DNA of 48,371 bases from assembly GCF_025602895.1 (NCBI RefSeq), contig NW_026516422.1, positions 1 through 48,371 of the forward strand, given 5' to 3'. Made by a program: the position numbers and the translations under genes. Under the pieces are notes generated by a model. That model was not told the DNA's origin, did no database searches, and was given only the letters and a program-made list of their open reading frames with translations. The first letter of the stretch is position 1. The number at the start of each line of letters is the position of its first letter. Positions 14,694 to 18,929 of the stretch are shown one piece after another. The DNA comes from Polychytrium aggregatum. Taxonomy: Eukaryota > Chytridiomycota > Chytridiomycetes > Polychytriales.

Positions 14694-14943
14694 CGTCTTT
14701 GTCTTGATACATCCGACACCGAGATTCTGCCAAGAGAGGAGCATCATGTCACACGCTATTCTTGAATGTTCATATAGCACGCATATGAGCGGTTTATCAA
14801 TGAGATTTCACTGTGGCTCTACTTGACCGCATCGGTCATCAGTCGCTGGCAAGCGCGCTTTGGGTGGAGCTTCCATCAGCCCTGGATGCTCATGGCTCCC
14901 GCAGGTCGGTCTGGATGAGCGGCGATCGGCCAATGCAGCGGTA

Positions 14944-14969
14944 CACTTTATTCAGAAAAAAACGGGACA
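14944..14969. repeat. terminal inverted repeat, Fanzor side
   Basis: The 26-bp end of the element reads inward from CACTTTATTCAG to AAAAAAACGGGACA. It pairs with 18652-18677, is homologous to 24617-24642, and is preceded by TA. Confidence 0.9.
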
Positions 14970-15041
14970 ATATAGCCGTTTCCATGAACATGTAGTATGT
15001 GCTGTGCTTGCGTCAAGCAAAGCCACAAGGAATAAAACAGA
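14944..15041 (-). ncRNA. putative Fanzor guide RNA (fRNA) region
   Basis: These 98 bases lie between the Fanzor stop codon and the element end, on the Fanzor strand. In TnpB and Fanzor systems the guide RNA scaffold comes from the 3' end of the gene and the adjoining element terminus, with the guide read from DNA just outside. The derivative at 24544-24642 keeps a homologous terminus of 99 bases, with clear blocks (TCTGTT.TATT.CTT.TGGC, GACGCA.GC, CATACTAC, TGTCCC, TAAAGTGTA), far beyond what the inverted repeat alone needs. A 6-bp stem hairpin with a 3-base loop lies at 15005-15019. Transcription and a guide role are inferred. The guide, if any, would start at 14943 and read toward lower coordinates. 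Confidence 0.55.
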
Positions 15042-17414
15042 TCACTTTGGCAGCCTCCGAGTGAAGACCGCCGGTCGCTCTCCGATCTCCACAATCGACC
15101 TGCACACTGCGATCATGTTGCGCGCCGCATTGACGTCGCGATTCCACACTGTCCGGCAGCTGGGATTCTTGCAGCTCCTGACAAAGTGGGAATTCGCAAC
15201 ACTGGGCGCATCGAGTCCTTCCAACCGAACTGGCTCCAGGCACTTGGAGCACACTTGCGAGGTGTTGAACTCGTTCGTCGAGGCCACCTTGACGCTTCCA
15301 TGATGGTGATTGGGACGGCGTCGGTGGTGCTCGAATTGCTCAAAGTACCGAGCAAATCGCTGCCTCCGAGGGCTGGATGCATAGCCCTTGCCTTGTCGCC
15401 ATGACGCATTGCCAAAGGCGATCACCACATCGGTCCGTATCGGGGCGTGCTTCAGGACGGCCTTGCACATCCTGTCGACGGCCACTTGGCGTCTCTTGTG
15501 GCCCGTGAAGCGATGGTGACGGGCCTTCTTGCCAAGGTGGAAGTCGAGCTGCACTCGCAGCTCCGGTCGCAGGACATGGGTGAGATGGACCTTGAAAGCC
15601 TCCGAGGACGACACCTTGGGCGAGGGGGTGGTCGACATCCAGGTCTCGATGTCGAGTCGATACTTCATGGTGTTGTGCCACCTTGTGTTGGACGTATGGC
15701 CACACATGTGCTGGTAGTGGCCATTGGAGAATGAGACCACCTCGTCTTGGTGGCCCGGTGCTTGGATGACCGCAGTGAAGATGGAGCCGACTCCAGGATC
15801 GATGCCAATCCAAGTGGTGCGATCGGGGTCTGGGTCGCCGATGTGGGCCTGGATGCGCTGTTCGGCAGTCGGAGGAGGCTCGATGGTCTCGGTGCGATCG
15901 GTTCGACGCACAAACTTGACGAGACCGATGGTGCATCCAATGCCATCGGTGCTGATCTCGTAGTTGAACAGCTTCTTGTCCCTGACCCGCTCTTGGAAGA
16001 GGGAACTACGCAGCTTGAAGCAACTGCGCCAGAGACGATCCTGGTTGTTGACACCGTCCTCACCTTCATCCTTGAGCTTGTCCCTGGTGAGTCCAAGGCG
16101 CTTCTTTGGACCCAGGAGTTGCCAAAGAGTGACCGTGTCGATCTTGACATACTTGGCCGTGGCAGTGCATAGAGGAACTATCGTGCACACGGCCGGAGGA
16201 GTGTCGACGGCGAGCTGCTTGAGTGCCCAGTTGATCCTGGATGCCAGCTGGTTGATCTTGGCCTTGGTGGTGCCGAGCTCAGACTTGGCCTTGGTGAACC
16301 TCTTGTCGTCGGAGGGAATGCCTTGGGTAGTGAGCTCGTCCAGCTTGGCCTGGCGCTGCAGCTCGGTGACTCGGAGGGCGGGCATGTCACAGTCGATCCA
16401 CTTGTGGACATCGTCCTGCATCTTGTCCCGGGCAAGGATTCTCACATGGTGTGAGAGGCGATGGAGGGCCCGGAAGCGGTCCTGGTCGTTGCTGTACCGA
16501 AACTCGTCCAGGACGTGGCCAAAGTCTGGATAGAGGAACTCGAGATCGGCCTTGGGTGGAGTCGAGTCCGGTTTCTCGAAGAGCTCGAGACAAGCCTCGA
16601 TGGCTTCGTGCTTATGCTTGTTGGCTGGGAAGACGGCAGCACAAAAGCGACGAAGGAGTCGCCAGTATGCCAGGTTGAGGTGGGTGGTGCAGTTGGTAGC
16701 ATAGGCATTGACAGCCAGTGTGAGAAGCTGACTGTGAGCACCATCAGGCAGACGAGGGGCCGGAGGCAGGTCTGCGTGCCGAGTGGTCTGGTAGTCGCGA
16801 AAGGAAGCGACCAGATGCTCGTTGTATTTCTTGGTATCCCTGGCTGTCGAGAGGGCATCGGCCTCGACAATCGTGAAGCATTGGCGAACGAAAGCAGGGG
16901 TGGACTTGGAAATGACGGGGACGGGAAGATCCTGCTCGATGCACCGGAGGATGTGCAGGTTGAGCAGCCTGGATGCCTCGAACTGGATCTGGGTCATGGC
17001 CTCGACGGTGGCCTGGATCTTGTCGCGGAGAGCGGGATTGAGACAACAGCCATCCATCGTCTGCTTGAAGCAGCTGAACTGAGGGGCGGATGACCTTCCA
17101 TCCACGAGAGGGACGACAGAACTCTTGAGGGGCCGGTATTTTGGACACTTGCTGGTGTTGCAACGTTCGTGATCGGTGCCATCGCACTGGCGACATCGCT
17201 TGCCGGTACTCGAGGAAGTAGATGGACCAGGCTCGGTGGGATCGACATCCATTGGATCTGTAGAAGCAGTGGTGGTGAGCGACGGAGCAACAGACGACCA
17301 AGCATGCGTGGGGTCAGAAGACGAACCAGAGACAGGCTCCGACTGTGACTTGGCTTTCTTGGGCCTGGGTGGCCGAGGCTGGCCATCACCGGCACCCTTG
17401 CGCTTCGGAGGCAT
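15042..17414 (-). CDS. Fanzor RNA-guided nuclease (TnpB/Cas12-related)
   Basis: An intact 790-codon frame encoding a Fanzor, a eukaryotic TnpB homologue that cuts DNA under guidance of an RNA made from the element's own 3' end. Numbering from the Met at 17414, RuvC-I is GIDPGVGS (Asp about 539) and RuvC-III is WNRDVNAARN (Asp 760). The zinc ribbon has CSKC (722, 725) and CKNPSC (748, 753). The usual RuvC-II glutamate is absent: the strand reads VVIAFGNASW (663-672). A glutamate at 715 (STNEFNTSQVC), some 45-50 residues on, fits the rearranged active site described for Fanzors. The N-terminus is basic (PPKRK, RPPRPKKAK), a likely nuclear signal, followed by a Ser/Thr-rich stretch and a Cys cluster (CRQCDGTDHERC). 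The frame is open upstream to 17600, but the 17414 Met fits the nuclear signal and a TATA-like site at 17541-17548. Confidence 0.95.
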   Translation of the reverse strand: MPPKRKGAGDGQPRPPRPKKAKSQSEPVSGSSSDPTHAWSSVAPSLTTTASTDPMDVDPTEPGPSTSSSTGKRCRQCDGTDHERCNTSKCPKYRPLKSSVVPLVDGRSSAPQFSCFKQTMDGCCLNPALRDKIQATVEAMTQIQFEASRLLNLHILRCIEQDLPVPVISKSTPAFVRQCFTIVEADALSTARDTKKYNEHLVASFRDYQTTRHADLPPAPRLPDGAHSQLLTLAVNAYATNCTTHLNLAYWRLLRRFCAAVFPANKHKHEAIEACLELFEKPDSTPPKADLEFLYPDFGHVLDEFRYSNDQDRFRALHRLSHHVRILARDKMQDDVHKWIDCDMPALRVTELQRQAKLDELTTQGIPSDDKRFTKAKSELGTTKAKINQLASRINWALKQLAVDTPPAVCTIVPLCTATAKYVKIDTVTLWQLLGPKKRLGLTRDKLKDEGEDGVNNQDRLWRSCFKLRSSLFQERVRDKKLFNYEISTDGIGCTIGLVKFVRRTDRTETIEPPPTAEQRIQAHIGDPDPDRTTWIGIDPGVGSIFTAVIQAPGHQDEVVSFSNGHYQHMCGHTSNTRWHNTMKYRLDIETWMSTTPSPKVSSSEAFKVHLTHVLRPELRVQLDFHLGKKARHHRFTGHKRRQVAVDRMCKAVLKHAPIRTDVVIAFGNASWRQGKGYASSPRRQRFARYFEQFEHHRRRPNHHHGSVKVASTNEFNTSQVCSKCLEPVRLEGLDAPSVANSHFVRSCKNPSCRTVWNRDVNAARNMIAVCRSIVEIGERPAVFTRRLPK

Positions 17415-17540
17415 GGGGACAGAGGATGCTGGATGCCTGCCAGTGGTACTGGTCAGAGCAGAGACTTTTTTATCGTACAATAGCGCGATGATCAGATCAA
17501 GGCGAGATGAGGGAAGAAAGCAGCAGGACGAAGGTGTGGC

Positions 17541-17548
17541 ATTTATAC
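17541..17548 (-). promoter_or_regulatory. TATA-like box upstream of Fanzor
   Basis: GTATAAAT on the minus strand lies about 127 bases before the Fanzor start codon at 17414, within the 249-bp gap between the transposase stop and Fanzor. This suggests Fanzor has its own promoter. It is a motif match only. Confidence 0.4.
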
Positions 17549-17663
17549 CCGAGAGCAGGAGCCCGTCTGTGCGGGCTGGATGGGAAGTGACCCTGTTCAA
17601 AAATCGCCGAGAGGTTCAAGCCAGGGATGTGAACGCGAAAATGGCGGCTTGATTGGAGGGAAC

Positions 17664-18593
17664 TCAACCCCAGAAGCGCATCGCTCGCTCAATCAGCCGT
17701 GGGAAGACATCTGGAAACACTCTCCGCACGGCGGACTCGAACAGGGTCACCATCCCGACTCTGAACCCCTCGGACGCATTCAGCGCTGCTGCCTTCCTGT
17801 ACTGATGCTTCACAATCCCAAAGAAGTTCTCGATGGGATTGAAGTCGGGCGAGGCAGGTGGGGTGAAGATCACTGACCATCCTCGGCGCTCGATGTAGTC
17901 CAGGACAGCCATTGTCTTGTGCATGCTGACATTGTCCATCACAATCACAGAGTCGTCTGGGAAGCTCGCTCGCTCAAAGAACTCGACCATCGAGTGTCTT
18001 GAATGATGTGGGGATGTACATGCGATGCAGCACACCAGAGTGGTTGATGGCAAATGCAGCCGAGACAGACTTGTGCTTCATGTGATTGAGCTGGCGAAGC
18101 GGAGCACCCTTCGGCGAGTATCCGTAGAGAGGGAAAATGGATCTCCTGATCCCTGTCTCGTCGACAAAAACGAGCCGTCGTGGGTCGATGGAGCGGGCCT
18201 GGTCCCTGAACTGTGCCACTCGCTCATCCAGTCGCTTGGACTTGTAGAGGTGTGTTGCCCTCTTGTGCGAGAGACCTGCTCGGTGGATGGCAGTGTGGCA
18301 GAGTGAGAGTGAAACTTTCCTCTGGAGGATGGACTCGAGCTTGCATCGCAACACAGGACCAGTCTGGAACGGTCCTGTTCAATCAGGGTGCGAATGACTG
18401 GACATGCCTGCTCGAAGAAAGTGGATCTGCGAGCTGGGACCCGGGATGGGTCATCCAGCTTGCATCCTCGGTGCCATCGATGGATGGTGCTTTTGGACAC
18501 ATTGAATATGGTGGCGACCTTACGCAGGCTATGGATGAGGGCGTAGCATCGCAATGCGGCGGTGCGAAAGTCGGATGTGTGGCGAATGGTCAT
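17664..18593 (-). pseudogene. IS630/Tc1/mariner DDE transposase, two frameshifts
   Basis: The transposase of the element, which would cut and rejoin at the inverted repeats with TA targets. It begins at the Met of 18593 (TIRHTSDFRTAALR) with a helix-turn-helix (LRKVATIFNVSKSTIHRWH). The catalytic domain shows RRLVFVDETGIRRS (first Asp), SVIVMDNVSMHK (second Asp) and SPDFNPIENFFGIVK (Glu). Thirty-four residues separate the second Asp from the Glu, giving a DD34E signature. The frame is broken twice. Near 18370, EQD runs into FQTGPVLRC as if one base were lost. Near 17980, FKTLDG runs into VEFFERASFPDD in another frame. As sequenced it cannot make the full protein. Consensus errors are an alternative, but the neighbouring Fanzor frame is unbroken over 2.4 kb. 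Confidence 0.88.
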
Positions 18594-18651
18594 GGCCAGC
18601 GCGCGATAACATTGGGTAACAAAATATTCGATGAATGGTCAAAAACCCGGG

Positions 18652-18677
18652 TGTCCCGTTTTTTATTGGATTGCCTG
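18652..18677. repeat. terminal inverted repeat, transposase side
   Basis: The 26-bp right end of the element reads TGTCCCGTTTTTTATTGG and onward to CCTG, followed by TA (18678-18679). Inverted, it matches the left end (14944-14969) at 19 of 26 positions. It matches the derivative's left end (24356-24381) at 17 of 26. Confidence 0.9.
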
Positions 18678-18929
18678 TAATTTCCTGGAATGCGATGTGG
18701 TGGCGGGCTGGGACAGCAGCGGCGCAGTCCCGTCGTGACACCCACATGACGGCCCAACTCTGCGGCAGCCCCGATCGGCCCGTCGTCTCTGGCTCGATCG
18801 ATCTGGCCCAGCCCACCCGCACCCACACCCGCAAGACATCACAGCCTGTCCAAATCGCCCCCGTCTACTACTCCATTCCTTTCTCTTCCCTCATTGACCG
18901 CTCGGTGTGACTTCATCGTTCAGTAGCCC

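Follow-up and report, generated by a model that had tools for sequence, protein, structure and literature searches.

Elements that carry Fanzor1 nucleases have been described before, one of them from the chytrid Spizellomyces punctatus. The joint presence of a Fanzor1 and a Mariner transposase in a TA-flanked element has been known since 2013 (PMC3627910), with PGv-1, PUl-1 and PUl-4 presented as Tc/mariner elements bearing Fanzor1 genes (Bao and Jurka 2013, PMC3627910). In the Spizellomyces element SPu-1, which encodes SpuFz1, a conserved CA in front of the 5' repeat is described as part of the target-adjacent motif (TAM) CATA (Saito 2023, PMC10432273). As outlined in PMC10711439, the Fanzor1 fingerprint consists of DPG in RuvC1 and an alternative Glu that precedes the zinc finger by six residues.

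Here we describe a Fanzor-bearing element in contig NW_026516422.1 of Polychytrium aggregatum, which was analysed over its whole length of 48,371 bp (the window; this contig, C136, is one of 418 in a 64.7-Mb genome). The window element, in which the Fanzor is intact and the transposase dead, belongs to a high-copy Tc1/mariner family (IS630 superfamily), called family A in this work. This new member of the known group is marked by its high copy number, by purifying selection on both the transposase and the nuclease, and by a TAM that is predicted to be TTA. No title on family A was found in the open-access literature among the matches listed, most subscription journals being outside the scope of that search. 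We propose that RNA-guided site retention is the best-supported function of the Fanzor, and consider this reading moderately probable.

A high-copy family with a Fanzor1 gene and a DD34E transposase

A preliminary description of this DNA had claimed a complete element with 26-bp inverted ends matching at 19 positions, TA on each outer side, and an intact Fanzor and a DD34E transposase of the Tc1/mariner family in the same direction. The ends, the flanking TA, the common orientation (both genes are on the minus strand) and the uninterrupted Fanzor frame were borne out at the positions given in Table 1; "complete" does not hold for the window copy, in which the transposase is frameshifted. The inverted repeats and the TA at the junctions are those of Tc1/mariner (IS630) elements, and the TA is read as a probable target-site duplication from both flanks, not from an empty site. 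The boundaries did not shift when copies were aligned, being common to 39 copies (the window copy and 38 others that are 94.9-96.5% identical to it over the largest aligned piece), with the exception of L032, whose right end deviates.

The genome search for the ends that had been suggested earlier, with up to two mismatches allowed, gave 260 matches for the left 26-mer and 0 for a reversed control pattern, a result far beyond chance. Among the matches listed, 69 of 100 left ends are paired with an exact right end, and these paired elements measure 3.72-3.76 kb (25), 3.30-3.72 kb (28), 1.1 kb (4), up to 450 bp (10) or other sizes (2). Family A spans full-length down to 279-bp forms. The left terminal repeat has low diversity among copies (pi 0.009), while that of the right repeat is not lowered (pi 0.041).

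Table 1. Features of the family-A element in the window
Feature	Position	Strand	Basis
Fanzor-bearing Tc1/mariner-type element (family A)	14944..18677	genes on -	39 copies aligned to same ends
Left TA (probable target-site duplication), adjoins Fanzor 3' end	14942..14943	.	TA at 32/34 distinct left junctions
Right TA (probable target-site duplication)	18678..18679	.	TA at 33/34 distinct right junctions
Left terminal inverted repeat, 26 bp	14944..14969	+	19/26 match to right end
Right terminal inverted repeat, 26 bp	18652..18677	-	19/26 match to left end
Fanzor1 coding sequence, 790 aa, uninterrupted	15042..17414	-	D539 (DPG), E715 (alternative Glu), D760
Transposase region, three frames in window copy, two small deletions	17664..18593	-	intact 310-aa DD34E/DDE_3 in 19/43 copies
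Putative omega-RNA (right-end RNA) scaffold	14942..15157	-	last part of Fanzor coding sequence + 98-bp 3' region + terminal repeat + TA
Predicted guide, flank read outward from Fanzor 3' end	14921..14941 (length approximate)	-	Fanzor1 architecture as described in PMC10432273 and PMC10711439
Predicted TAM, 5'-TTA-3' on Fanzor strand	18678..18680	-	TAA at 210/220 exact-pattern right junctions vs 13.8% background

The nuclease is identified as a Fanzor1 by profile, catalytic fingerprint and predicted fold, in agreement with the identity first proposed. PF07282 matches it at E 6.5e-9 (36.3 bits against a cut-off of 26.3), and a TnpB-family C4 zinc finger/TNB domain with the RD motif is present (CSKC...CKNPSC...NRD). 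DPG in RuvC1 corresponds to D539-P540-G541 and the alternative Glu to E715, six residues ahead of the zinc-finger C722, as read on the window protein and on a copy of equal length that is 95% identical. In a profile search the protein matched SpuFz1 (PDB) at E 1.3e-7, and the seven best PDB fold matches of its predicted structure (Foldseek, VIA-align) were all Fanzor1 chains; the model has the large recognition (REC) lobe, RuvC and TNB of the Fanzor1 fold, at a predicted local distance difference test (pLDDT) score of 70 with residues 1-70 and much of 277-409 under 50. An earlier AlphaFold2 model (4 sequences, pLDDT 41.5) was not used. The Pfam scan of a 20-protein alignment found the TNB domain in 19 members, plus two weak single-member matches, and a full-length protein search gave no match at E 0.001 among the 7,996 candidates scored. 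The carrier also agrees with Fanzor1, being a non-IS607 eukaryotic transposon with a DDE transposase and TA-flanked repeats. Two Polychytrium gene models (P0003 and P0004) have Fanzor RuvC/zinc-finger pieces fused to male-sterility/AMP-binding and F-box proteins; these fusions are probably transposon pieces absorbed in annotation.

The transposase is of the Tc1/mariner/IS630 type by its profile matches: in the intact copy L002, DDE_3 scores 85 bits and the IS630 model 125 bits (cut-off 100), which upholds the family assignment made earlier. The DD34E triad of that description exists in an intact copy (D145, D221 and E256, with 34 residues between the latter two), but not in a single frame in the window, where the gene is split over three overlapping frames (18078-18593, 17974-18354 and 17664-18053) because of two small frameshifting deletions near 18373 and 17998, judged against copies L002 and L004; the first Asp is thus in a different frame from the second Asp and the Glu.

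Decay and selection were followed in 43 copies, i.e. 34 distinct sites and nine same-site partners. In 36 of them the Fanzor frame runs without a break over at least 730 aa. The transposase measures exactly 310 aa in 19 copies, or in 22 when frames of 300-365 aa are also counted, and both frames are kept in 15; the difference between 36 and 19 gives a Fisher p of 2.6e-4 for copies that are non-independent and were picked by similarity to the window element. The dN/dS-like ratio (nonsynonymous to synonymous change) is 0.29 for the Fanzor, from 32 copies after 11 had been dropped, and 0.20 for the transposase, from 19 copies after 24 had been dropped. That of the Fanzor hardly changes with the state of the transposase, at 0.28 for the 20 copies with a broken one and 0.31 for the 12 with an intact one. 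Sizeable deletions are present in seven aligned derivatives and fall in the transposase region.

A one-sided target motif and the putative omega-RNA

Genome-wide, the exact right end is followed by TAA at 210 places and by TAC, TAG or TAT at 10, whereas TTA stands before the exact left end at only 40 places, the TA there following some other base at 170; these counts take in same-site duplicates. The background in 2,052 flank TA dinucleotides is 13.8% for a following A and 14.0% for a preceding T. At the 34 distinct sites the motif is present at 30 right and 6 left junctions (Fisher p 5e-9). Since the Fanzor gene points to the left end, the left flank would be the guide and the right flank would carry the TAM, which is predicted from the junctions to be 5'-TTA on the Fanzor strand. 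The motif most likely marks either Fanzor action or a target choice matched to the Fanzor, a reading based on the CA/CATA of Spizellomyces and the TTAA of GtFz1.

The Fanzor 3' end, from which a putative omega-RNA with the left flank as guide is predicted on the model of Fanzor1 architecture, is retained in all nine short derivatives sequenced, the shortest holding 14944-15109. Of the left end, these derivatives keep 166, 214 or about 446 bp, which include the final part of the Fanzor gene and the following 98 bp; of the right end, they keep 97 to about 660 bp. They were located via the left 26-mer, and forms lacking it would escape. Third-position diversity near the Fanzor stop (element positions 102-214) is 0.022, against 0.068 over the whole coding sequence. 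The region gave no Rfam match up to E 1.

In the reading that we favour, transposase from intact copies would act in trans to cut and paste elements into TA, and each inserted copy would make an omega-RNA from the Fanzor 3' end with the DNA past its left end as guide. The Fanzor ribonucleoprotein would then recognise an element-free locus by the 5'-TTA TAM and the guide match and cut it, and homologous repair from the sister or homologous chromosome would restore or copy the element. In this way the Fanzor would play the part of bacterial TnpB, holding the element at its site or spreading it, and derivatives without protein genes that keep the RNA end could use the Fanzor in trans. The link between nuclease and transposase in element maintenance, also drawn in the preliminary description, may be real: the TTA motif, the kept Fanzor 3' end and the purifying selection all fit it. 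The empty site that had been proposed as a check was not encountered: joined flanks of the 34 sites yielded none in 40 scored of 530 candidate places in one assembly, turning up several further occupied partners instead, and insertions into related elements offered none either, their flanks matching the related family on one side only.

Several points weigh against this reading. The absence of empty sites also fits old, fixed insertions. Diversity in the non-coding positions 27-98 (0.034) is hardly under that of the intergenic spacer (0.039), and the RNA consensus structure is weakly supported (weak covariation in a 3-sequence alignment). The left end is required by the transposase anyway, and derivatives without it would be missed by the search. 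The motif could also come from a transposase able to distinguish its two ends. Insertions without TTA persist, at least two of them (L004/L010 and L015/L033) on both contigs of a same-site pair, and short derivatives lacking the Fanzor show the same preference (TAA in 12 of 14 paired elements of up to 2 kb, among the matches listed). These observations speak for the alternative that the Fanzor is real and selected but has no role at the site, the one-sided TAA being a target preference of a transposase complex oriented by unequal ends; all 7 mismatches among the 26 terminal-repeat positions lie in the outer half, so that such orientation is conceivable. The target preferences of Tc1/mariner transposases are usually symmetric around the TA, which weighs against a motif made by the transposase alone, and the preference in short derivatives leaves the Fanzor possible as its source, as the putative omega-RNA end is kept in every one sequenced. 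In the Spizellomyces element, moreover, the conserved CA precedes the 5' repeat and CATA proved to be the TAM in a screen, according to PMC10432273. We regard transposase preference as a serious possibility, although not the likelier explanation of the motif.

It is very improbable that the Fanzor has some other task, for instance to cut competing elements or to regulate transposition, and does not restore its own sites. Some copies do lie at or beside related elements, so that guides against other transposons exist, but no depletion of such rivals was seen, a second Fanzor-type family being itself of high copy number. The 40 places scored for the joined sites were mainly own flanks, same-site partners and element ends, and hence did not point to guides directed mainly against other transposons.

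Related elements were seen next to several copies. The second Fanzor-type family (family D; in the flank of L014 and at L054-L058) occurs at no fewer than 40 places, with its source 100% and the others 91-97% identical to its end. Ends of two further related types (B and C) with a similar 3' region lie in the right flank of L009 and the left flanks of L047 and L053, the latter two being short family-A copies placed exactly at the TA adjoining a type-C end. L005 is inserted at a TA next to the right end of a related element, which matches the family-A right end at 87%.

Same-site pairs and shuffled element bodies

Nine pairs of copies have both flanks alike on two contigs; eight of them have full-body counts, L042 being omitted (its contig ends inside the element) and L045 compared separately. 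Between partners, the flanks show 0 to 3 substitutions in stretches of 300-1,500 bp, apart from a length shift of about 21 bp at the left of L001/L040 and the right flank of L007/L023, which aligns over the first 486 bp only. The element bodies, in contrast, diverge by 3.39% in L001/L040 (114 differing sites in the multiple alignment), 3.38% in L003/L041 (106), 2.30% in L009/L043 (86), 3.28% in L013/L044 (113), 1.07% in L004/L010 (40), 3.50% in L007/L023 (131), 2.98% in L015/L033 (109) and 0.03% in L017/L018 (a single position); the pairwise counts of 123 for L001/L040, 122 for L003/L041 and 112 for L013/L044 partly reflect alignment around a deletion. Sixty random pairs have a mean of 138 differing sites. 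Same-site partners are thus as a rule closer than random copies and far less alike than their own flanks. Lengths differ too: the ninth pair (L030/L045) has 3735 bp on one contig and 1,110 bp on the other, and L013/L044 has 3739 against 3414 bp.

Linkage between common sites (r2) is 0.35 at less than 10 bp, 0.08 at 10-30 bp and about 0.03-0.04 farther apart, the chance value for 34 copies, so that it is gone past about 30 bp. Some pairs have long identical ends with the differences elsewhere, and non-allelic copies have identical tracts of up to 747 columns. Such a pattern is expected of frequent gene conversion between dispersed copies, and part of it may be assembly error. Repeat hypermutation was rejected as the main cause of same-site divergence, since most variants recur in other copies: in the nine pairs the fractions are 102/114, 79/106, 75/86, 94/113, 30/40, 114/131, 96/109, 1/1 and 78/88, compared with 88% of differing sites in the 60 random pairs, and the changes go beyond C>T/G>A.

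That the divergence is an assembly artefact, with the wrong copy placed or copies mixed in the repeat, seems rather unlikely. A short-word assembler or mispolishing could also abolish linkage within about 30 bp, and some same-site pairs are alike at their ends but not in between. However, pairs also differ by whole deletions (as in L030/L045 and L013/L044, see above), most Fanzor frames are open, and the fetched loci hold no N. As a control, 89 and 56 of 150 scored integrase matches fell into two equal-score groups, so that this assembly can represent high-copy repeats without scattered errors, although this control covers one 100-residue domain and not same-site pairs. In these two groups, 57 and 35 matches lie in frames of exactly 1361 and 1498 aa; the groups are probably two young long terminal repeat (LTR)-type families.

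Two further observations concern the flanks. A tenth pair (L006/L039) has only its left flank in common (99.9%), the right flanks differing past the first bases, and is likely the result of recombination through the element or of a rearrangement. In L014 and L015, the left flank matches family D to within about 3 bases of the insertion point but the right flank does not, which points to ectopic recombination through the element at a later time.

A bolder extension of site retention is a cycle of excision by the transposase and Fanzor-guided restoration, in which the healed TTA site would be cut and refilled from a sister or homologous chromosome. The repair template would often switch among the hundreds of other copies, so that the site would be kept and the body repeatedly rewritten. 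Such a cycle would explain the TTA side, the lack of empty sites and the near-identical flanks around bodies that differ by up to 3.5%, as well as the differing deletion forms per site, the shared ends with foreign middles and the loss of linkage at about 30 bp. We hold it to be decidedly unlikely at present; if true, the shuffled bodies would be population-genetic evidence for a eukaryotic Fanzor as a site-retention drive.

Comparison with known systems

Family A brings together in one genome copies with both genes intact, Fanzor-only copies and protein-less copies at many natural insertion sites, and is thus a natural system for studying the role of the Fanzor; for site-retention questions it offers a TAM prediction (TTA), a large natural guide set and paired contigs. 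A transposase that decays first is a suggested route to Fanzor-only elements such as SPu-1. TnpB systems are bacterial, work with another transposase and lack cut-and-paste between terminal inverted repeats. In TnpB of IS200/IS605, and in its use as a plasmid gene drive, an element-borne RNA-guided nuclease takes its guide from the insertion site and cuts element-free copies, as presented in PMC11870625; this function was tested in bacteria (PMC11870625), while for family A it is suggested by analogy.

Among eukaryotic elements, PGv-1 and PUl-1 resemble family A in holding both a Fanzor1 and a Mariner-type transposase, bounded by inverted repeats and TA duplications (PMC3627910). PGv-1 and its relatives are described as single-copy in that source, in contrast to the 260 left-end matches, the 279-bp forms and the strong one-sided motif of family A. 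SPu-1 resembles family A in its fungal host, its inverted repeats, the conserved 5'-side bases within the TAM and ghost loci that keep the RNA end (PMC10432273), as well as in putative TA duplications (PMC3627910). The short family-A derivatives are similar to these ghost loci (PMC10432273). SPu-1 differs in that no transposase was found between its repeats, according to the account in PMC10432273, and its TAM is CATA as against the predicted TTA; the protein similarity to SpuFz1 is remote (E 1.3e-7). GtFz1 of Guillardia theta and PpFz1 of Parasitella parasitica have the same Fanzor1 fold, and the TAM of GtFz1, TTAA(N), is like the TTA predicted for family A (PMC11423790). Unlike family A, the GtFz1 locus appears from PMC10432273 to be without inverted repeats and transposase.

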